A stretch of DNA of 64,000 nt from Apostichopus japonicus (taxonomy: Eukaryota > Echinodermata > Holothuroidea > Aspidochirotida > Stichopodidae), in the NCBI RefSeq assembly GCF_037975245.1, contig NC_092573.1:15148001-15212000 (forward strand). The letters run 5' to 3'. Under the pieces are notes generated by a model, which was not told the origin of the DNA, ran no database searches, and worked only from the letters and a program-made list of their open reading frames with translations. How positions within the stretch are numbered: the stretch's first letter is position 1; each line of letters starts with the position of its first letter. Both the position numbers and the translations under genes were made by a program. Shown here piece after piece: positions 4,593 to 64,000 of the stretch.

Positions 4593-4973
4593 TGCATGTG
4601 AATGTTATGAACTCTAGACTAGCTGTTAAAACATACCTGCATCAGGTCATCCTTTAATAGGGAGCTCTACCTTGATATCTTAGATTAAAGAATATATCCA
4701 TCACAAAATAAGAGATGGCTTGGTCAGATTTAAAAAAAATAACAGAACAGTGAAATGCTTCTTGAACTTTGGAGGTGGAGAATGAATGACCACTATTTGA
4801 CTTTTAGCATATTGGGTTCAATTGATGACCTTTAAATAGCCTATGACCTATACTCTAAACAATAACTTATTTTGATTTAGGTTGGGCCTACATAGCAAGT
4901 GTGCAGTCACCCAACATTTACTTCTGAGTTTACAGTACATAGTTGTCACTAAGTGCAAGAAGTTTAAACTGTT

Positions 4974-5900
4974 CTCATAGCCACAGGCTGTCAGACACAC
5001 TTATACCTAGGCATACCCATAACCCAACCTGGCAGACACTGTTGTACCCATGCATAGTCATAGCCAACCTGTCAGACACACTTGTACCTAGGCGTACTCA
5101 TAGCCAACCTGTCAGACACACTTATACCTATGCATACCCATAGCCAACCTATCAGAAACACTTGTACTTATGCATACTCATAGCCAACCTATCAGACACA
5201 TTTATACATATGTGTACTCATAGCCAACCTGTCAGACACACTCATACATATGCATACCCATTGCCAACCTATCAGACACACTTGTACTTATATGCATACT
5301 CATAGCCAACCTATCAGACACACTTGTACTTATGCATACTCATAGCCAACCTATCAGACACACTTGTACCTATGCATACCCATAGCCAACCTATCAGACA
5401 CACTTATACATATGTGTACTCATAGCCAACCTATCAGACACACTTGAACTTATGCATACCCATAGCCAACCTATCAGACACACTTATACATATGTGTACT
5501 CATAGCCAACCTATCAGACACACTTGTACCTATGCATACCCATAGCCAACCTGTCAGACACTTATACCTATATGCATACCCATAGCTAACCTGTCAGACA
5601 CGCTTGTACCTATGCGTACTCATAGCCAACCTATCAGACACACTTGTACCTAGGTGCACTCATAGCCAACCTGTCAGACACTTTTACCTAGTCATACTCA
5701 TGGCCAACCTGTTAGACACACTAATACCTAGGCATACCCATAGCCAACCTGTTAGACACACTAATACCTAGGCATACTCATGGCCAACCTGTTAGACACA
5801 CTAATACCTAGGCATACTCATGGCCAACCTGTTAGACACACTAATACCTAGGCATATTCATGAATAGCCAATCTGTCACACACACTTACACCTATGCATG
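4974..5900. repeat. Minisatellite, ~40-bp unit, about 22 copies
   Basis: Head-to-tail units contain the core ATAGCCAACCTATCAGACAC followed by ACTTGTACCTATGCATAC variants. Units are mostly 40 bp, with a few indels. Variants change along the array: CTATCAG predominates in the middle, and CTGTTAG with CTAATACCTAGG in the last four or five units, which suggests local homogenisation. Confidence 0.95.
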
Positions 5901-8900
5901 CAAATTCCATCTCATATGTTTCTTTCTCCTATAATATATGCAATGAACGAGAAACAGCTAGGCAAATATAATGGCTGTCGCCCACAAAATAATTGAAAAT
6001 ACAAACTCTAAAGACAAGTGAAAGCTGGTCAACATGATGAAAGCCTGCCAACTGTGAGAGCCAAGATTTACCACTTTCAGTAGGCTTCCCTTCATCATAC
6101 TACACTTTGAAAGTTATGTTCCAAACAGATCAGTATGTATATGTTTGAATATTATTACAGCCAGATAATATGAAGAGAGTAAATACAGAGAGAAGCCATC
6201 AAGACTAGGCATGCAGCAAAGATTACAGACTTATCCTCATTAAATGTGACATAATCCATACACTGAAGATATAAAATCCAGTCTTGCGGCAAAACGGCGG
6301 CATGAACTCTCCTGTCAACAACCTTCTGGAACTACCATTAAATTGAGTTAGTATGAAAAAACATGCAAGAGCCCTATGGATATATTGGAGTGAGAAATCT
6401 ATATAATAGGGCTCTCTAAGAATAAAGAAATTTATACAAGTAAAGGAAAATTTAAATTATGTAATTACAAAACTAAATTAACATGCGCAAAAAGGAAATG
6501 AAAAAAAGAAAAGAAAAAAGTAGTCCCCTGTAGCATCTAATAACTGCCATAACCAAAAAAAGTTGTAGAAGCCTTCACTGCCAAATAAATTCAATTTATT
6601 GTTGATCATTACAGAGGCACACAAGTGCTACCAAACTTGCACATTGGAAATTTTGGAAATTCAAAGAATTTCTGAATACTCTGATGTGGAACTAAGGTAT
6701 TTGATGAGTTGGAGATTGACATTAAAAAATGTTCATATTTCTTTGCGCTCGCTTCAATCTCAAATTATCATGTTTTTAATTTTCAATGTCAGAATGTTAT
6801 ACATAGCATGCTTAAATACTTACTTCATACACTATTTAAGCCTTGTTCTGTTTGCATTGTCAATTTATTATGCCTTCTTCTCTCATCCCCCGTCCCCCTC
6901 CCCCCCAAAAATAATAATAAATTGGCATCCATCCCCCATCAAGGTTTATGGCACCATAAATAATGTGAATGGCACTCTAAGTAGATGATGTTTCAAATTA
7001 AAACATTTGTGACTGGTATAGTAAATCTGAAATAATCAAAGTCAATGGCTATATGGTACAAACATTCATTTTGATGTGAAATTAAATCATGAGGAAGTTT
7101 TGCCTCTGTCATTTGGTAAAATCTTCACAAAAAGACATTAAAGCATTGGATTTCTTGTTTGCAAATGACATCAATTCAAATTTTAATGATCATGTGTCCT
7201 ACTTATTCTCCTGAGGTAACATAATTCTCTTTAGCCACAAACAAATCTAAACTGGGATATCATCTTGTGAAAACCGATTCTAGAATCCGTTTCCAGGAAC
7301 CGATTTTCCATCGTGCGAGAAACGACATGTGTTTCATGAAAGACAAATTTTTGTTTAACAAGAAACAAAATCAATGCCAGCTGTACAAGCTGAGCTTGAA
7401 TTTTATTAATCTTCGGTTACATGAAATTAGCGTGGGTAAACATATTTCTGTGCACTAGTGGCCTTTTTTCTTTATGGTCAACATACATGGTACGCACGTC
7501 AACAGCTGACACGTTTATGTACACGTGCTATGTTTCCTGATGTCACATGCATGCATGTGTGATGAGAGCCGACTGTTGAGTTCAATTCCTTCTATTTAAA
7601 CTGTACTTAAGCTCTGATTCATTTACATTTTGTAACAAACAAAAAAACCTTCAAGCGAAAACTTTTTAATTTTATGCAATTCACTAAGTCATGAAAATAA
7701 ATAGTCAAAGCATTGGCAGGCAAAATTTAAAGACATATTGTCACGTTAAGTCCTTTGTGTCACAGCGTCGACGAGTGCCAAAAATATATATACACGGCGA
7801 GGACCAGAATTATGCTGACATTTGAACTATATACGAAACGTACACACAAAACAGAAATGGAATTCTCTAGGCAGAAGTCAAGTCTATTATTTGGCCAGTG
7901 TTATAAAAAGAAAAAAATGGCATGGATTACATATTTTTATTCCACTAAACTCTTTTCTGTATGTCACATTTAATTGCCAGCGATATACTCTAACTTCTTC
8001 TCTCTTGGTATGTTGGTTACATTAATCCTGAACAATTTGCAGCCATGATATAACAAAGAATAACTATCAACCTGCGGTAAACTACATGTACGCCTTTCGC
8101 CTAATACCTTAGCCTCATCTACATTTCTATGCAATTAACGATACTCATGGACACACCCATGTTGGTCATATTTCATATAACAACTTATCATGACTTTTAA
8201 AACTTAATTAGGTTGGAAAATTGATGTTAAAATTAAAATTATTTAAAGTTAATATATTGATTACCACAACTAGTAAATTAACTGGATTAACTTATAAATT
8301 ATTACAAAATATGACATATTGCATATTTCAGTCGGGATAATTCAAGGATGATTCCATGAACACACAATTCTCAACCAAACATCAAACAATGAAGCAAAAA
8401 ACCTTGTGCTGATTTGACTCTAGCTTGATTGTGACAAAGTTACAACATACCTTCACCACAGACTTAATTATATCACATCTGACTAGCTTCTTAAATCCTA
8501 GAAGTGATTGATAGACACTTACCTGCGAAAACGATCCCACAAACTTGATCAAACCACTTTGTATGGCTCCTTATATAACAGTTGCCACATAGAAATCACA
8601 TGATATACACGTGCATTATAAAAACACCAAACTTTAGAAGACATGCTACATCTGCAAATATACCATCAAGTTTAAATTGCATTTGATGCTATTTTCACTT
8701 TCAATTCCAATTCCAAAGATATATATCCTCATTACGAATGTGGTTTCTGCATGCTGAGTGTAAGTCCAGTGTATATACGTACATTAATTAATAGCCATAT
8801 TAGTAGTTTGTGGAAGAGTTTTACCTTTGAAGTGTTTTACTTTGAAAGGTCAATGAAATCCATGGTTGCCAGGCTCTTACTGTACACACACTATTTATTA

Positions 8901-13860: not shown

Positions 13861-15346
13861 TGTGAAAAAGCAATCGTATTAAGGGCAGCCAAACATTAAA
13901 AGAAAATCAAAACAAAAGTCCATTAGAAATTTTTCAGTTCTTACAGCAGATCTTTTAACAGTGAATACTTGAAAGGACAACTGTAAAGGACTTGATGGAT
14001 TCAGGTAAGTTATTTTGTAAGATGCAGGCCAGCAGAGGAGCAGAAGTTAAACAATAGTTTCCCCAGTATCTGTAAGAAAGCTTTATGGGTAAGAAGACTT
14101 TTTATTCTGAGAGCATTTTTCATAAGGTGCACTATATATTATCTAAAATGCCACACCAGTTTAAGTCTATTTCCATGCTTAAATTTTTGAGAGAAAAACC
14201 AGTATGAAGATAACATATAACAGGGAGACTGCAAAACTGAAGCAGAAAATTGTAACCAAATTTACACTCTTCTCACATTGCATTGCAGAATTTCTATCAC
14301 TCCTGTCTCAACATTATCTTTCTGCTTCTAAAAGCCTTGAAAAAAGTTGAAAAAAATACTATAAAAAGCAACCTTACTAACTGAAAAATGTGTGCAATTG
14401 CCAGATAGGTCTGTTGTTCTCAGACCAACAGCTAAATCAATCCCTGTAAATTCATTTTTTTTTCCCTGACAGATTTGCAATAAAAAGCTTCCCTATTGGG
14501 TTTTCAAGGAATCCAGAACCCTGGGATGTGCTGCATTGATTGTGAATTGACTGTACCGAGCACATTCGTTATGGAAAGAGTGCGAGGTTTGGCTAATTGC
14601 ACTGAGGAAACCAGGAAAAACTAATATAAACACGGCTTCACTTCAGTTCTCTATCTATCTTCCCAACGGATTTACTATGTATAAAGGCAAACTGTTTGAG
14701 CAATATAGTCGGTGTGTATGTAGTTTACATAAACATCAAGCAATAATCATTCCCTACAGAAATTCTAGAGTAATTATCATTCAACACTTAAAAGGATTTC
14801 TGTCATCCATTTCAATACTTTGAAGACCTGTACTAAGACATTGCATTAACAACCATTAAAATTAATCATTGCTGCATCACAAAATGATGCCCTAACCATT
14901 GACACTACGAGTTTGGCAATTAGTGATGGGGTGCTTTCAAATTTAAATCTTTGTAGACCAGTCTTCTGTATTATGTTCGTAATTGCAAGTGTCCATAGTT
15001 CTACCTTCTCATTACTCTGTTTTTGATCTGACAACCGTGCAAAGTACATTCTGTTCTCTTCACCACAAAGTGTCTAAGTACTATTAAATATTGTCAACTT
15101 TTCAAGAAATGTTTTAGGCTTAACAAAATGTCAAATCCTGAAGTTTTTCATAGCTTCCCTATGAAAAGCACAAAAAATGGCATGCCATAAGGATGATGTC
15201 TTTATAAGGCTACCATGTTTATATCATTTCAGAGTTTCAACAAATAGACCAAATGGTACAAGTGACTTTCTGTCTCCTATCTAGTAATGTAGAGGATACA
15301 AACGTTAGACATGTCTGGGATGAAACTCTACTGACGTGATATGCCA
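13861..15346. other. Non-coding, no gene seen
   Basis: AT-rich. A 67-codon stop-free stretch on the minus strand (14846-15049) matches no family I know and lacks convincing splice sites. Confidence 0.5.
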
Positions 15347-15710
15347 TTAAAGGGTGTGAAGACTCGCACAAAAGGATGTATCTAATAGAGGTAATCTGAC
15401 CTAGTTTTGAATGAGGTGTAGCAGAAGTGTTAGACACCACCATCGATACCAGAAAATACACACACAGCTTGCTACCGTCGGTAATTAGACACTAGTGTAC
15501 AGTCAATACATGCAGCTACGGTCAATACCCACAGCACAGTGTACATAGCAGCGATGGTTATCTCAGGTCCAGCTAAAGATAACAAGGTATCACGTTATAC
15601 TGTCTGCATTTTGTAGCGACACAAACAAAACGTCACTTGCAAGCAACAGAAAGTTAACTTTTTAAAAAGATAGCGGCACGCTGTTTGGGGAGAGTCTTCA
15701 ATGCCTTTAA
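15347..15710 (+). mobile_element. TTAA-type (Kolobok/T2-like) MITE, copy 2
   Basis: Uninterrupted 356-bp element (15351-15706) flanked by perfect TTAA at 15347-15350 and 15707-15710. Left end AGGGTGTGAAGACTCGC; the right end inverted reads AGGCATTGAAGACTC. TTAA duplications with TTAAAGG-type ends fit the T2/Kolobok group. No coding sequence. This copy serves as the reference for the split copy 1. Confidence 0.8.
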
Positions 15711-35964: not shown

Positions 35965-37236
35965 GCATAACTGTACATGCAGTTAACACATGAGATGCAC
36001 ACATGTCTTGATTTGATGTGCGTAACGCGCAGGGTTGTATGTAACTTATAACCAACTCTTTGTAACTTACGAAATAAGCGCTAACGTTTATTCAAGAAAA
36101 TATGCTGTAATTATGTTTTGTTCCTTGTACATCAAAGGAAGAAATGGACGAGTTAAACGAGGAACATGAAGTAGTCGGGTCAATATAGGATTTGACCTCA
36201 AAAAAATTGCAACAAAAGGTTTTTTTGCTTTAAGTCGCTCTATAGGTTACTGACATCTCCAGAAAAAAAGTCTCCCAAAATCGGACCCCGGGAAAGGGGT
36301 TAATTTGCATAATTCCAAAATGGCGGACCCCAAAGGCTTCAATGTACCGAAAACCTCCTTATACTTCAATTTTGGCATATGAAATGTATTACCAACCTAT
36401 AGGAACATGATGCTAGAATACCAAATAAGCACATTTTCAATGTTATATGACGTCACCATAGGGTAGGGATGACGTATGTGACCCAAAATTAACATATATC
36501 AGCCGATTAGGTTGAAATTAACACATAATTTTCAAACGAAACCAGGCAGATGTAATACATAGAAGGGAACCTACTCGAATTGACTTGTTCATGAAGTAGA
36601 AACGACATCGAATTACGTCAGCAACCAATTGATGCTCATTTTCAAGTAGCTATACCAAGGGCGCAACCACGTATAAAAGGTACGGGGGTCCCAGTCAGAT
36701 TGTGTTGGAGGCGCTCAATCCCCGATAAGTTTTCGTTTCTCTGCCAGAAGTTGAGGTTCCACATGAGGTTTGGGCGTGAGCCTCCAAGTGGTTGTGCCCT
36801 TGGGCTATACACGTAACATTTCAGATGACATTAGGATGTTGTGGAGGAATGATATAAACATTAGGACCAGCATTCTGAGGATATGACAATTAACCTAGTG
36901 CAACAGGGTCACATATACCTATGTATTCTACACGTCAACGTCATCATCGGATTCAATGTCTGGTCCCAGTGTCTGGTTAAAGGGGTTCTCACAGAAATCC
37001 ACTTGGCATGGTCCACATGCTGCTGTGCAGGGTAATCCATACCCTCGTCAAGTACACCGCCTCGTTGTACACGCCGTTTGACAGTTACAATGTACAACCT
37101 TGAGTAAGCAGTCAGGGGCAGGCGACTTGTCACACATTACAGGCTTGAATAGATTGTTCTCAAGCTTCCAGCCCCAGTCCGTTGCATGGAGGTCTTTCTC
37201 CTGGCCGTATGGCAAGCCGTTTTACTTTTTATTCGA

Positions 37237-40185: not shown

Positions 40186-41287
40186 AAAAAGTAAAACGGC
40201 TTGCCATATGGCCGCACCAAGCTCTGATTTGATAGTAACACCTCAATGAGTGGAATTTCGTCGCTGACGCAGTCGGGGGTAGCCGTTCTGGAGTAACAAA
40301 ACTTGTCACCAGAAGCAACCTTCTTCCTCAATACCTTATGTCTCAGCTTGGCTAGATCCTCTGTTGCTTTTCCACCAAAGAGTAACGCCATTGCTTTGTT
40401 TCCACATTGTTCAATAGTGTCAGATGTTTCTCCGACACTCTCAAAACGAACTGCACACGAAACTAGGTCTATGTCCCCCTCGATAATCTTCTGGAACAAC
40501 GACTTTTCCCCCACACCAAATAGCATGGATGAACAGCAAGTGAGAGCACATGGTTTGACCCAGCAGAAGTTTGAGCTCATTAATGTTATAAACTCGAACT
40601 TGGTGCCTGGATTTGTCGTTAGACCGGAAGAACAAAGTTTTGTTTTCTGGGTTCATATAGAACAAGAGAAGAACCAACAAGTCGGTGTCTTCTCCAACTA
40701 GAGTAGTTGTTCCAGTTTCGGAAGCTGCAATGGCGGCATGAACAATGTCACAGTCCGCATCTGCCTGACAGTTGACTACATGACATCCTTTCTCTCGAAG
40801 CCTATTGCTTATCATGTTGATTAGTGCCTGTTTGTTACTTCCCCTTGAGAGAAACTCATCCTTTGTCCCACGGAACACTGCTCCAGGGGTTACGCTCACC
40901 AGTGGGTGCTGCCTGTGTTGCCGTCTCTCGTGAGTGCTGTCATTGGTAGATGGTGTCTCTTGGTACCCATCAAAGACAACAGTTGCAGTGCCATAGTTTC
41001 TAAGGGTGAAATCTGCATAACAGTTGGCGATGGTGTCATATGTAGTGCCTTTATCCCAGGGAACTCGATGCATCAGTGAACCGCCATCTAATACATAACT
41101 CTCAGTCTTTGGGATATCACTGGTTATCGCTGTCTCTGACTGCCCATTAGCTAACTCCTCAATAGCTCTCGCCAACTGTGCTTTATCTGGCTTCCGGAAT
41201 ACACCATTTGCTTCAAAAAGCGAAGGGGGGGGGGGGAGGAAGGAGTCACTTCGAACTCCAGAACATCTCCCAAGGATAGGTCTCCAG

Positions 41288-41668
41288 CTTCTGGTGACAG
41301 GTTTTGTTACTCCAGAACGGCTACCCCCGACTGTGTCAGCGACGAAATTCCACTCAATGAGGTGTTACTATCAAATCAGAGCTTGGTGCGGCCAGGAGAA
41401 AGACCTCCATGCAACGGACTGGGGCTGGAAGCTTGAGAACAATCTATTCAAGCCTGTAATGTGTGACAAGTCGCCTGCCCCTGACTGCTTACTCAAGGTT
41501 GTACATTGTAACTGTCAAACGGCGTGTACAACGAGGCGGTGTACTTGACGAGGGTATGGATTACCCTGCACAGCAGCATGTGGACCATGCCAAGTGGATT
41601 TCTGTGAGAACCCCTTTAACCAGACACTGGGACCAGACATTGAATCCGATGATGACGTTGACGTGTAG
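41288..41668 (+). pseudogene. Inverted second copy of the PIN-like gene's C-terminus
   Basis: Right-arm copy on the + strand encodes FVTPERLPPTVSATKFHS, YYQIRAWCGQEKD, DWGWKLENNLFK and the Cys cluster, without the foldback insertion. It carries the same TGA in the Cys cluster as the left arm, so that nonsense change predates arm duplication or has been spread by gene conversion. It lacks the N-terminal half. Confidence 0.7.
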
Positions 41669-48606: not shown

Positions 48607-48755
48607 GTATTTTGTAGGTAGTCAGTCCATCTGCGAAAGTGAAATCTTTCAAGAAGAAGAATTCCTGTCCTGTGCAGTTGTGAAGTTCAAGTTGAATACA
48701 AACTTGGCATATCCTGATCTCTTTTGCATACATTTGCCCCTAAACTGAAATCCAA

Positions 48756-50604
48756 ATGTTAATAATGAACTCTGAGTTAGAAAGGTATAGGACATATGAA
48801 AAGCTTGAGTGGCCTAACTCAATACCAGTCGAGCCTAGAGATTTAGCTGCAGCTGGGTTGTACTTTACTGGTCAAGGAGATAGAGTTGCTTGTTTTGCAT
48901 GTCGTGGATGTCTCAGTAACTGGGAAGCAGGCGATAGTCCACAGGAAGAGCACAGAAGACTTTTTCCAAAATGTCCTTTCATCCTTGGTAAATTTTGCGA
49001 TAATGTTCCATTGGACAAAGAGACCAATTCCACCGATAGCATGCCATCAGGGTTACCTGACTATGCCATCAAGACTCCCCCTCTGGATCGGTTGGTACCC
49101 TCAAAGCTTGGTATTCCTGCATCAGGTAGATTGATTCACCCGATGGATATCGTAATGTCCAGTAGGCCTACCCCTGATGTCTTGCAGACATGCCAGCATC
49201 CTCAGTATGCCATGGAAAACCAGAGACTCGATTCTTATAGAGGATGGCCTGCCAGAAATCCTATGAAACCAACTGTCTTATCTAGGGCCGGATTCTTCTA
49301 CTCAGGTTAGATTCATTTATCCTTCACAACTGACAACTGTGTTATGAACCGCTACTGTATCTCTTCTTTTCCTTAATCCAGGCAGCAAAACTCTTGAGAG
49401 TAAAATCTTATGTAGAGACAAGTCTCCTAGTTTGTTCCTACTGTACCTGTAGTTTTTCAGTTGCTTCTAATTTTTAAAAGGTGCCAGTTTTGGGTGAACC
49501 CTGGTTTCAGATCCTTTGAGTGGAAGTTTTTCAGTTCCAATCATTTACCATTAATCTTCATGACGTTAGTCAAGGCACTCTATTCACTGTATTCAGTTTG
49601 GGGGAGAACTTGACAAAGTTGTTTTCAAGTCATTCTACTTGGAAACTCAAGTCATGACCCTTTAGAACATTGGTTAGTCTCCTGTGATTAAAAGAAAATA
49701 TTATTTCTGCAAACTTTGTTTTGCTGATTCATGTTACTAGTACTCACTAATGCTGTGACTGCCTTCCTGACACAACAAGTTTGAGTGTTTCATTTCAAAT
49801 TTGAAATGCCATAACAGAGTGAATAGAATGCATCAGCAATAACCTAAATTATACATGCAGTTAAGTCATAAGTTCATACAGTTACTATTGTACTCATGAA
49901 AAATTTGTGTGAAGTTAACACTGACTTGATTGATTCCGGTTGAAAATTCATTCAAGTCACATTTCCTGTAATAAAATTTGGAAAATGACAAAAGGTCTGG
50001 GGAATAATTGAATGTAACTAACATATGCATAGCGCTATGGAGGTTCATACTAGATTGAATCCAAAAAAATACAACACTGTTTCACCATTACTGCAGGTAC
50101 CAAAAAAAAAAGCCTTCCATCTTTGTGCTTCTATAACAATTTGACCCATTTTATAGATTTATGATCCCTGAGAAATTATTCCCTGTTCAAAGGTCTTCTA
50201 AAGTGGAATTAGTTACTTCAGCATTGATAATCATCTGTATCAAACACAGATGTACAGAACTTCTTGATGAGAATTTGTTAAGAAGAACATGATACAGTAA
50301 TTAAGTTCTGCCCAAATTAAACTCACCAAAAGATGTTATTGTACAAACTTTTGTTTTATCTAAAGCTGCTGTATTTGGTAATTGTCTGCATTGTTCCTCT
50401 TTCAATACTTAATATTTAATTCATATTTCTCTTCCAACAGGTGCAAGTGACAAAGTGATCTGTTTTTACTGTGGTGGATCTTTGCAAAGTTGGCAACAGG
50501 AGGATGACCCTTGGGTGGAACATGCAAGGTCATTTCAGAGATGTGAATGGCTCATGCAGCAAAAAGGGCCATATTTTATGGAACATGTGTTAAGAACATC
50601 ATGA
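48756..50604 (+). CDS. Inhibitor-of-apoptosis-like protein, two BIR domains, no RING
   Basis: Two coding exons, 48756-49305 and 50441-50604, join in phase at a Gly codon to give 237 residues. BIR1 (about residues 8-76) has the zinc ligands C46, C49, H66 and C73 (CFAC, 16 residues, H, 6 residues, C). BIR2 (about 157-225) has RGWP, then C191, C194, H211 and C218 with the same spacing; the intron lies within BIR2. BIR domains bind caspases or IAP-antagonist peptides in the cytosol. Most XIAP-type proteins add a UBA and RING; here the frame stops 19 residues after BIR2, so ligase activity is not expected from this model. An in-frame TAA at 48741 supports the start; a second ATG at 48765 is possible. 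An alternative 3' exon with a RING cannot be excluded. Confidence 0.9.
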
Positions 50605-57100: not shown

Positions 57101-60100
57101 TTCATTGACAACTTTGTAGAAGATAACTATTTACAATGATTATTTTTCAAGTTTATTGTGATTAGGCAAGTATTAAGGTGATGAGGACAGGAATTTTCAA
57201 AATCATGTTGGTAACACATGCTGATACATTTGACTAAATCCTGTACATATGTGATATAATGAAGAAAAAAGTAGAAGAATATGGAAGGTAAGCACTCAAG
57301 GGTGTGAAGACTCGCGCACAAAGAAACGTCTCATGCTAGTAATCTGACCTAGTTTCGAATGAGGTGTAACAGAAGTGTTAGACACCACCTTCAATCCCAG
57401 AAAATACACACACAGCTTGCTACCGTAGGTAATTAGACACTAGTGTACAGTCAATACATACAGCTACGGTCAATACCCACAACACAGAGTACATAGCAGT
57501 GTGGACATCTCAGGTCTAGATAAAAGATTTAAAACAAGGTATCACGTTTCAATACTGTCTGCATTTTGTAGCGACAAGAAGAAAAAGTAATTTGCAAGCA
57601 ACGGAAAGTTAACTTTTTCAGAGTGTGGCAGGCGGTTTGGGTCGAGTCTTCTATGCCTTTAATTCTTATAAAATTGTACTTTGTACATTTTCCTTCCTGT
57701 CTGTAGTACTTTTCTCTATTTTTACTTCATTCTCTCTCAATAGCGGAACGGTCCTCAAAGAGAAGGAAAGCCACATCTGATCAGGCTGAAATTGAGGCAA
57801 GACTGGAATCTCTTATAACAAGAGTCGGCGAGAAGGTACGTTGCTTGTTCATTTTGAACGATATTACCTGAGCATGTCCTTGCTTATGAGTCCTAATGGT
57901 GTACCCAATAGAACACTTACAAATAGACAAAACCCTGATGTGGACAATTACTGTGGAGCAACCAGTATCGCTCATTCAACTTGTGTTACTGATAGTTGAA
58001 TTAAAACCTTCCATGGTACTTTGTGCAATCTTTCTAAAGTCACTGATGTGCAGCTGTGATGAAGTCTCAATGTATGACTTTCATGCCATTTGGTTAATTG
58101 AAACCTCAGAAAGTTGATCGCTAACTATTGTCAAACTGGAGATGAGTATAATTTCAGTTATTAATGTAATGTACATGCCAGGAAATATCTTGATTTTTCA
58201 TGAAGATGATTAACCTGTGCCATAATGGTTAGTCCTTTTGAAATCTATTGAACAGTCAAACTGTCGTACCCGATTTTTTGCCCTTGTCAAAAGAACGTCA
58301 GATCTTCTGTCAAAGAGGGATGATTGCCATTCATACTATTTTTTCGTCAACTATTTGTTATTTGTGAGAATTTTTTCGACAGTTTTTTCCAAAAAATAAT
58401 TGCACATGAAATGTTGACCATTATACAATGCTTTCTGTGCATTAATCAGCTGCAGGTATTGGATTACTAGACATGGTGGTACTTTCCTGTACATGCTTAT
58501 TCCTTCCCTGTACATGTACTTTAGGCAAAGCAGAAGTTTGGTTAAGAAAAGGGTTTTTACCATGGACATGTGAATGTATTGCATGACCCTGAGCTCCTTT
58601 TGTAACATCTTGTAACATTTCAGTGAAGGAGACTATGGGGATAATAAAGCATATGAGTCTAATATATGGCCATTCTGTTCTGTTTCAGAGTACTTCATCC
58701 CTGGAGAGTAACCTGGAGGGTCTGGCTGGTGTATTGGAGGCTGACTTGAGCAACTACAAGCATAAAATCTTAGAAATACTTTGTATATGGTAACGTCTCT
58801 TACAGTGATATATAACACCAGTTTATGTACATACATGTATTCTGGAAATAGCAACTAAATTAGTTGGCATTCATAAAGTAAACTATCCCTTTAGCACTAG
58901 TTCATTTCACTATCAACCTACCCTAGAAGCTAATGTTATGCCATTACTGCTACAATTATATATTGACTTTTGATTCTCTTGATTCAAGGATTAGGTTAAT
59001 GTGTTGATGTTTTTTAACATTGTTTATTACTGTGCCAACGTGGGATCCAGCAGTACATTTTAAATGCAATTGGCTGCATTTGAACAGGATTCTACACCAA
59101 TATTTCAAAGTCTGTTTAAAGAAAGAAGGAATGACTGAAGATGTGATTCTGTTTGTATATATTTTATTGGCCAAGTTCAGACCACCCTAATTGACCACTG
59201 CAGCTTGTCATATTGCTCTTCATGTAGTCCTTGAAGCTGTAGTTAGTGTTGAATATGACATAGTTTTGTTTAAGGAGAGATGAGGTACATGTAAATATAA
59301 TACATATCAATAGTTATAAGGAAATAGGAATGAAGATATTAATTATGGGAAAAATGAAGAGACTTTCAAGTGCAAACAAAACCATTATTTAAACTTTTTG
59401 TGATAAAAAAAGAGAAAAAACAGTTCTTTTAGGATTGAATGAAAATGGTTCATAACTCACCAATTTATGAGCTCAGCCAACAGTTGCAACAATATATCTC
59501 TTGTGGTTTGATGTAGGGATATCCAATAATTACGTTTGAATATTATATGGTTTGTTCAGAATGATGCAATGTAAGAACTCCATGCAAAAGTCAGCTTTCA
59601 AGAAATATAAATAAAACCAAGTATGATCAGTGAAAGAGAATGTCATGCTGGTGGGATAAAATAAATTCCATGTGACATTTTATTCATGACAAGTTATTTC
59701 CTGTAGGTGAGGTGGATTATTGTACAGAGTGGTACGGTATTCATTCGATAATATATAAGTTTACTTCTTTACAGTGCTATAGAGTTACCAGAGAAGGTTA
59801 CAGTTTACACTACTCTGGTTGGTCTCTTGAACACAAAGAATTACAGTGCAGGCGAAGAGGTATGCATATGATTACAAATAAGATAAGTTAAAAAGTTATA
59901 TCTTAGTATGGGATTTATTTATCCCATAAGAGGGTGTATATCTCTTTAATAAATAGCCTGTTGTGTTGGCAACAAGTGGTCAGGCCATAATTATGCATGC
60001 AATGAACAAACCCTTCATTTGTTATGGAAGCAATTCAAAAAGCCAAGGAAATTGAGCTTAGAAGAAGTTCCATTATGTGATTAGTAAAAACCAAAGAGAC

Positions 60101-62918: not shown

Positions 62919-63304
62919 AGAAGAGTAAGTTGCCTAGTACCATTGACACTGTAAGGTTTCCATCAGTTGATGGTCATGGTATATCAGACATAAAGATCTT
63001 GTTGATATTATTAGCCTCTACTTTGTCTGTCCATTCTGACTACAGGAGGAGAAAGAAAGACCATGTGCCTACCTTGCGTGTCTGGCATTCTGAGAAGCCT
63101 CATGACCAAAAAGATGTAAGTATGCTGTAAAATTCCAAACAAAACGCTTTAATAAGGCTTTTTGTTTTGAGTATTGTTACATCGAAGCCTCAAAAAGAAC
63201 TTTTTCATTCATCACTGAAGGTTACATTTGGTTGAGAAGTTTCCAGCCTCTTGTGTTCATAAATATGTATTTGTTTATATATATGTAGTAAATGTACATA
63301 TATG

Positions 63305-63340
<36 letters not shown>

Positions 63341-64000
63341 TGTGTAGCAAGTGGTATGACAGATATATAGTAAATCAATAAAGAATAGCACACCAGAAAA
63401 ATTCCACTTCACGACCGGTTTCGTCCTTTTGGGACTCATCAGGCAAAGGTAGGAATCGAACCCTGGATCTTTGTGTCACGAACCCAAGTCCGCACCACTC
63501 GACCACCATGATTCTACTGGTGTGTTAAAGCGTATAAATTGGCCTTGAATAACTGTCATTAAGGGCGTATTACCCAAGTGTTATGATTGTACAGAATGCA
63601 CCCCTGGCGCTTTGAATCTGACAATTTTACACAGAATAACCCACTCTTTTATAGGCAAGCCAAGCCGTAAATAAGAATTGAATGTGTAGCAAGTGGTATG
63701 ACAGATATATAGTAAATCAATAAAGAATAACACACCAGAAAAAAAAATATATATTTATGTATATATATAGTATATATACATATATGAACATACATATATA
63801 TGTATATATCTCCAGAGTTCCACATTGACAATAGAGTTGCTGCTACTTTTCCTTTCCAGTATATCGATTCTCTTTGGGGTCAAGTCCAACACATGAAATC
63901 TGAGGGGTGGACAGAGAAGGTGATTTTGCGACCATACCGTGCTTTTCACAGTCTATTATCCAATGCCCTTCAGCATGCGCTTCCTCCATTCACACCACCC
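54151..64000 (+). CDS. NCBP1: Nuclear cap-binding protein subunit 1 (CBP80), 5' part
   Basis: Eight coding exons: 54151-54184, 57744-57835, 58689-58789, 59775-59859, 61155-61382, 62166-62239, 63046-63115 and 63860 to beyond 64000. All have GT/AG borders and compatible phases, giving 275 codons of a protein usually near 790 residues. It starts [11 protein letters not shown], and KR plus SSKRRK form a bipartite nuclear signal. The MIF4G fold follows: [103 protein letters not shown] and LPPFTPP, each with a clear human NCBP1 counterpart. With NCBP2 it binds the m7G cap in the nucleus and acts in splicing, export and decay. The remaining MIF4G-like domains lie outside the window. Confidence 0.97.
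54877..55495 (+). mobile_element. Mutator-like (MULE) MITE in NCBP1 intron 1
   Basis: The element (54886-55486, 601 bp) has ~90-bp inverted ends starting GCAGTGGATATATAGCC and is flanked by a perfect 9-bp duplication TAGATTTTA at 54877-54885 and 55487-55495. A 9-bp duplication with long inverted ends fits Mutator-like elements. A short open segment at 55041 ([17 protein letters not shown]) resembles the start of a MULE-type protein, suggesting an internally deleted derivative. Confidence 0.82.
57296..57662 (+). mobile_element. TTAA-type (Kolobok/T2-like) MITE, copy 3, in NCBP1 intron 1
   Basis: Full-length match to 15351-15706; flanked by TCAA (left, one change) and TTAA (right). It ends 81 bp before exon 2. 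Confidence 0.78.
60826..61040 (+). repeat. Local tandem duplications in NCBP1 intron 4
   Basis: TTGATTAGTAGTTTAT occurs twice, about 51 bp apart. GACTAGCATTGAGTAAGTTG occurs twice, about 71 bp apart, each followed by GAGTAGTTGTCATGGAT. Recent slippage-type duplication. Confidence 0.75.
61383..62165 (+). other. NCBP1 intron 5, no repeat identified
   Basis: C-tract with CCCCCCCACCCC at 61441-61452; nothing else recognised. Confidence 0.5.
62600..62915 (+). pseudogene. LINE (L2/CR1 clade) 3' end in NCBP1 intron 6
   Basis: 62616-62801 encodes the last ~60 residues of a non-LTR ORF2: the block [20 protein letters not shown], then [20 protein letters not shown] and a stop, followed by AAAGCGCTCTG, GCGCTATATAAATG and a (TTA)n tail. 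5'-truncated and in the same orientation as NCBP1. The intact C-terminus suggests a fairly young insertion. Confidence 0.9.
63303..63337. repeat. (AT)n microsatellite
   Basis: Nearly pure TA/AT run at the 3' edge (minus-strand sense) of the retrozyme-like repeat; AT-rich DNA also flanks the other side (63743-63800). Confidence 0.9.
63338..63742 (-). mobile_element. Retrozyme/SINE-like repeat: 1.2 units of 342 bp with a hammerhead ribozyme
   Basis: 63338-63400 and 63680-63742 are near-identical direct repeats, 342 bp apart. On the minus strand the unit carries a TATA-like TATAAAAG (63647-63654), a tRNA-like head with A box TGGTCGAGTGGT (63494-63505) and B box GGTTCGATTCC (63452-63462), then a hammerhead ribozyme (63400-63457). 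The insertion begins, in minus-strand sense, about 12 bases past where the previous unit's cleavage site would be, as expected if a self-cleaved RNA had been copied into DNA. Known metazoan retrozymes are short tandem repeats with type I hammerheads; the tRNA head is the unusual part. It lies in NCBP1 intron 7, antisense to the gene. Confidence 0.8.
63400..63457 (-). ncRNA. Type I hammerhead ribozyme
   Basis: Minus-strand order: stem I strand GATTCC-TAC-CTTTGC; core CTGATGA (63436-63442); stem II GTCC, loop CAAAA, GGAC (63423-63435); core GAAA (63419-63422); a very short stem III within ACCGGT; cleavage triplet GTC (63413-63415); then stem I return strand GTGAAG-T-GGAATT. Cleavage is expected between 63413 and 63412. 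Stem I has two 6-bp helices (with G-U pairs) around a TAC/T internal loop, which in natural hammerheads contacts loop II. All invariant core bases are present. ACCGGT is self-complementary, so activity may need a dimer, as in other minimal stem-III hammerheads. Confidence 0.9.

Follow-up and report, generated by a model that had tools for sequence, protein, structure and literature searches.

The hammerhead ribozyme motif found on the minus strand of this sea cucumber sequence is most likely one module of a 342-nt repeat unit belonging to a mobile-element copy, and not a ribozyme of NCBP1, the gene in whose intron it lies. The presence of a unit of this length in 1.2 copies, together with A-box and B-box sequences, makes a mobile-element origin the most likely one, and the element is best read as being of the animal retrozyme or schistosome Sm-alpha kind. 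We assign a probability of about 0.8 to the explanation that the insertion is a 1.2-unit copy of a non-autonomous hammerhead retroelement, the RNA of which would cut itself at the hammerhead, whereupon a borrowed and probably Penelope-type reverse transcriptase would copy it into AT-rich DNA. All positions refer to the window, which is the whole 64-kb stretch of DNA that was analysed, and are collected in Table 1.

All 4227 Rfam families were searched against the whole window, and the only match above cut-off was the type I hammerhead family RF00163 at positions 63407-63448 of the minus strand (37.0 bits, gathering cut-off 34; E = 1.1e-05 across window and families). Besides a score above gathering, the match has the conserved core, stems I and II and the open end at stem I that characterize members of this family. 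A covariance-model search of the minus strand had been proposed as a check in an earlier sequence-only reading of this DNA, and its outcome agrees with that reading. The pieces named there, i.e. both core strands, a closed 4-bp stem II, a GTC triplet and a two-helix stem I with an internal loop, were all located on the minus strand as described, and in the predicted fold the internal loop UAC/U separates the two stem I helices. The accompanying claim that a chance match is very unlikely was also borne out. A rule-based search of both strands, which demanded the core, a 4-bp stem II, an NTC triplet and six stem I pairs, returned one hammerhead in the window and none in 200 dinucleotide shuffles of the window. 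The exact core 25-mer occurs once in the window and was absent from 100 shuffles even at up to three mismatches. In the prokaryote and virus collections, which serve as background only, the core joined to a CAAA-type loop matched neither viral contigs nor genome contigs. The type I hammerhead motif on the minus strand is real and beyond chance.

Table 1. Positions of the ribozyme, the repeat element and the surrounding NCBP1 features in the window
Feature	Positions	Strand	Remarks
Whole element, 407 bp (1.2 copies of the 342-nt unit)	63337..63743	minus	65-nt terminal direct repeats at 342-nt spacing
One 342-nt repeat unit	63402..63743	minus	G+C 41.5%
5' copy of 65-nt terminal repeat	63679..63743	minus	64/65 identical to 63337-63401
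3' copy of 65-nt terminal repeat	63337..63401	minus	Insertion ends (3') at 63337, 76 nt beyond the cut
A box TGGTCGAGTGG	63495..63505	minus	Fits TRGYNNARNNG, which is loose: 61 hits in the window, counting both strands
B box GGTTCGATTCC	63452..63462	minus	Matches GGTTCRANNCC; sole match in 64 kb on either strand
TTTTT	63397..63401	minus	11 nt past the cut; no other run of at least 4 T in the unit; Pol III might terminate here
Hammerhead motif, type I, with both stem I helices	63400..63457	minus	RF00163 match, fold and coordinates
Core strand CTGATGA	63442-63436	minus	
Stem II GTCC/GGAC	63435-63432 / 63426-63423	minus	Loop CAAAA
Core strand GAAA	63422-63419	minus	
Predicted cleavage site	between 63413 and 63412	minus	After GTC ending at 63413
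Stem I inner helix CUUUGC/GUGAAG	63448-63443 / 63412-63407	minus	Two G-U pairs; from fold
Stem I outer helix GAUUCC/GGAAUU	63457-63452 / 63405-63400	minus	From fold
Helix III hexamer ACCGGU, palindromic	63414..63419	minus	Predicted by co-folding to join two copies in a double hammerhead
AT-rich left flank	63261..63336		Resembles right flank
AT-rich right flank	63744..63809		Resembles left flank
NCBP1 intron holding the element, 744 nt	63116..63859	plus	Donor GTAAGT at 63116, acceptor CAG at 63857-63859
NCBP1 exon after the intron	63860-64000	plus	Matches human CBP80/NCBP1, 56 bits; last exon in the window
Earlier NCBP1 exons	57761, 58686, 59755, 61158, and one ending 63115	plus	

The sequence-only reading had called the hammerhead complete, which is an overstatement. 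Helix III of the monomer would consist of only two pairs (AC/GU, i.e. A-U and C-G) around a 2-nt loop, a closure that a single strand cannot fold. A stable helix III was thus not found in the monomer; minimal type I hammerheads that act as dimers can do without one. When the single motif is folded alone, the structure of lowest energy differs from the active hammerhead (z = -1.2, with 24 of 200 shuffles as good or better). Being palindromic, the helix III hexamer can pair with a second copy of itself: the co-fold of two motifs is a double hammerhead in which helix III has six pairs (-34.5 versus 2 x -15.2 kcal/mol), and four altered hexamers all failed to give this fold. The energy gained by pairing is nevertheless similar, at -4.1 kcal/mol for the native hexamer and -2.8 to -3.6 kcal/mol for the altered ones, of which one reaches a lower total energy of -39.2 kcal/mol via another fold. 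The calculated co-fold energies by themselves would therefore be a weak argument for a dimer, and 'minimal, probably dimeric' appears to be the apter label for this hammerhead. Dimeric action is known for type I hammerheads of newts and viroids (PMC6155905) and has been proposed for the minimal hammerheads of Penelope-like elements (PMC7761336).

The antisense position of the motif within an NCBP1 intron, which had also been read from the sequence, was verified by the CBP80 match of the next exon and by the splice sites at both intron ends (Table 1). Five exons were placed before this intron with an NCBP1 query, of which residues 1-16 and 181-197 were left unplaced, so that the intron, numbered 7 in the sequence-only reading, is at least the fifth. 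The NCBP1 pre-mRNA contains the strand complementary to the ribozyme and would therefore escape cleavage. An alternative is a hammerhead domesticated in NCBP1 that would act on an antisense transcript, for example by trimming antisense RNA or by releasing a small RNA. Such a role would agree with the intronic position and the intact core, and human intronic hammerheads are mentioned in a figure legend of PMC6155905. The terminal repeats of the element, however, differ at one of 65 positions, which points to a recent insertion, and the unit, its repeats and the boxes are features of a mobile element; domestication is thus a most improbable explanation. An isolated gene-linked ribozyme was rejected as well, given the unit, terminal repeats and boxes of a mobile element.

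Elsewhere in the window, a BIR-domain exon (48744-49307; Pfam BIR) is 100% identical over 98% to an Apostichopus japonicus protein and 64% identical to one from Holothuria leucospilota, which assigns the window to A. japonicus or to a species very close to it. Several other repeats were detected. Two 1-kb inverted repeats (36172-37207 and 42436-41389) are 98.3% identical and contain further repeats. Between them lies a 307-aa ORF (40444-41364, minus strand) for which no Pfam match was found and whose relatives include sequences from a sea spider, crabs and a limpet among the best 120 of 147 matches; inverted repeats and ORF may together represent a DNA transposon that arrived recently. Copies of a dispersed repeat some 370 bp long, which is the size of a SINE or MITE, occur at 462-638, 15345-15710, 57290-57662 and 2198-2399 with 82-92% identity, and a tandem array at 4970-5902 has a period near 80 bp, its shifted copies being 79-87% identical.

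Read along the minus strand, the hammerhead-bearing element consists of a 65-nt repeat, approximately 170 nt without a recognised motif, the A box, the B box, the hammerhead and a TTTTT that forms the start of the next 65-nt repeat, so that the 1.2 units hold one hammerhead. No further copy was found in the 64-kb window by blastn, no complete ORF of at least 110 aa overlaps the 407-bp element, which is also without an ORF for a reverse transcriptase or GIY-YIG endonuclease, and a 21-mer from the terminal repeat had no match in the viral contigs of the background collection. The partial tandem arrangement might also be the remnant of a local satellite array that reached its 1.2 copies without any retroelement insertion, and hammerheads have been reported in the satellite DNA of newts and schistosomes (PMC6155905; PMC2770079). 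A lone 1.2-unit copy in 64 kb, sharply bounded by AT-rich DNA within an intron of 744 nt, speaks against this origin and renders it highly improbable.

The terminal repeats could instead be host DNA, in which case the insert would be a 277-bp tRNA-related SINE with a hammerhead, flanked by an unusually long target-site duplication of 65 bp. The two repeats do flank the insert with one difference, and target-site duplications, where present, are described in PMC7229834 as longer than 4 bp. In the predicted circle, though, the 65-nt repeat pairs with the interior of the unit by 11 consecutive pairs (CUGGUGUGUUA; a helix without a chance control of its own) and by a 7-bp helix, which would be unexpected of target DNA; the repeat is therefore favoured as a sequence of the element RNA. 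The fold of the whole-unit circle only mildly beats that of shuffled sequences (z = -1.5, 14 of 200 as good). The length of 342 nt, with the repeat included, fits a known kind of element. Moreover, a second pair of AT-rich direct repeats is already present outside the 65-nt pair: the best 67-mer of the two flanks is identical at 55 of 67 positions, with at most 44 in 200 shuffles. Compared with the 64 of 65 positions shared by the terminal repeats, these flanks are not as well kept as a target duplication from the insertion would be. A SINE with a 65-bp duplication is accordingly regarded as unlikely, and the 65-nt repeats are treated below as part of a retroelement of 1.2 units.

Both boxes lie upstream of the ribozyme and are exact matches to the consensus patterns listed in Table 1. 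Measured from start to start they are separated by 43 nt, which corresponds to tRNA spacing, and a pair 25-70 nt apart was obtained in 2 of 5000 shuffled units. The B box and the outer stem I strand have GATTCC in common. Neither the Rfam tRNA model (E up to 10) nor ARAGORN detected a tRNA at the boxes, so the putative promoter is recognised by two short boxes and the distance between them. What the unit contains is a tRNA-like promoter sequence, and descent from a tRNA is possible. If the boxes act as a promoter, the T run 11 nt past the cut must be read through, as Pol III is expected to stop there before the tail that the copy at 63337-63743 carries. In the prokaryote and virus background, the combined pattern of B box and hammerhead was found in none of the genome contigs and once in the viral contigs, in an unrelated phage contig. 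At 4738-4870 of its minus strand, the phage-like contig IMGVR_UViG_3300033182_000420 (IMG/VR), which also encodes polymerase-like and baseplate-like ORFs, carries GGTTCGATTCC within what resembles the 3' half of a tRNA; 15 nt beyond this lies a hammerhead-like core around which stems I, II and III may form, all judged by eye. For this region, the hammerhead is absent from the lowest-energy fold, no Rfam match was above cut-off, ARAGORN found no tRNA and 50,697 phage records contained no match.

The 3' end of the insertion abuts (AT)n, and the 19-nt stretch at this end is rich in A and C (13 of 19), a content that is reached by 19 of the 324 19-mers of the unit. The 5' end falls at 63743-63747, where it is blurred by a T run; counted from where the absent upstream ribozyme would be cut, this is 11-16 nt further on. 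The element is therefore as long as one cut-to-cut unit minus 11 plus 76 (342 - 11 + 76 = 407 bp). For a Penelope-like element of Anolis it is reported that reverse transcription begins within an AC-rich stem-loop (111-118 nt into the ORF), that the hammerhead cut is at +26 and that the targets are AT-rich (PMC11167929); subtraction (111-118 minus 26) puts the start site of that element 85-92 nt past the cut. The end geometry of the sea cucumber element (76 nt versus 85-92 nt, AT-rich DNA) is suggestively similar, in a likeness that concerns one copy and was noted after the fact. From the 3' end and the AT-rich target we infer a likeness to the internal initiation of Penelope-like reverse transcriptases, and a Penelope-like enzyme would have been the helper. 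In the Anolis study, ribozyme mutants left insertion in vitro unchanged, no cutting by the ribozyme was seen in the absence of protein, and sequencing reads with either end at the cut site were lacking (PMC11167929). These results weaken any claim that cleavage is needed. An unpaired start site was dropped as further support. In the folded circle the start-site stretch is unpaired and ranks first of 324 among the 19-mers, where the signal looked strong, but the effect depends on stretch length (rank 4 to 30 at five other lengths) and vanishes in a linear template: when an RNA of 542 nt is folded in linear form, most of the stretch is base-paired (rank 472 of 524, 37 C).

Several known systems share part of this architecture. 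A tRNA-like part and a hammerhead in an approximately 340-nt SINE-like repeat are already known from the schistosome Sm-alpha elements, which like Sj-alpha contain a type I hammerhead within a short SINE-like repeat. The 335-bp W36.2_W001 is Sm-alpha-like (PMC8490949), and of the tRNA-Gln-TTG-like genes of S. mansoni, 2,342 of 2,368 were assigned to SINEs that resemble the Sm-alpha family (PMC2770079). In contrast to Sm-alpha, the sea cucumber element comes from another phylum, comprises 1.2 units with 65-nt terminal repeats and owes its tRNA relation to two boxes and their spacing only; the likeness is drawn from descriptions of these elements. With tRNA-derived SINEs the element shares an internal A box and B box spaced as in a tRNA, whereas recognisable tRNA homology is absent. 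Animal (non-LTR) retrozymes are described as noncoding, tandem or partly tandem units of approximately 170-400 nt with low G+C content and a type I hammerhead (PMC7229834; PMC7761336). With 342 nt, a G+C content of 41.5% (below 50%), a type I hammerhead and no complete ORF of at least 110 aa, the sea cucumber unit conforms to this description in size, composition, ribozyme type and lack of coding region; as for tandem copies that each carry a hammerhead, it is present as 1.2 units with one hammerhead. It differs in having A and B boxes, as retrozymes seem promoterless according to a 2020 review (PMC7761336), while a promoter has been reported in the LTR of a plant retrozyme. Penelope-like elements with minimal hammerheads in their pseudo-LTRs are similar in their very short helix III, which is thought to act in a dimer, in their partial tandem arrangement, in a 3' end at a set distance past the hammerhead and in their AT-rich target (PMC11167929; PMC7761336). 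Unlike these elements, the 407-bp element has neither reverse transcriptase nor GIY-YIG endonuclease and would be non-autonomous. By title or abstract opening, no hammerhead element of an echinoderm was found in the literature covered, a search that lies outside most subscription journals.

For the favoured retroelement of 1.2 units, the following course of events is conceivable. A parent locus would be transcribed either from its own internal tRNA-type promoter or by read-through from outside, and paired hammerheads would cut the transcripts of the parent array. A host RNA ligase may close some of the monomers into 342-nt circles; monomers of other retrozymes have been circularised by RtcB in vitro (PMC7229834). 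Reverse transcription would start 76 nt past the cut, pass one uncut ribozyme, traverse the unit once and stop 11-16 nt short of the next cut site, and integration into AT-rich DNA would be the final step. With its lone ribozyme, the present copy could cut an RNA once; it could not release a monomer unaided, and the element at 63337-63743 is likely a dead-end daughter copy.

A more far-reaching and rather doubtful proposal is that of an echinoderm retrozyme with a tRNA-type promoter, in which one sequence would serve both as Pol III B box and as stem I strand, the 5' end would be set by hammerhead cleavage and the 3' end by a Penelope-like internal start 76 nt past the cut. Both the enzyme that moves animal hammerhead retrozymes and the way in which these are transcribed are left open in the reviewed parts of the literature (PMC7761336; PMC7229834). 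The present copy combines what may be a Pol III promoter with a ribozyme of the dimer type and a Penelope-like insertion end, so that both questions become testable. The A and B boxes, should they be a promoter, would fill the promoter gap of retrozymes in an animal and, if the proposal is true, this element would be a missing link that joins SINEs, retrozymes and Penelope-like elements.
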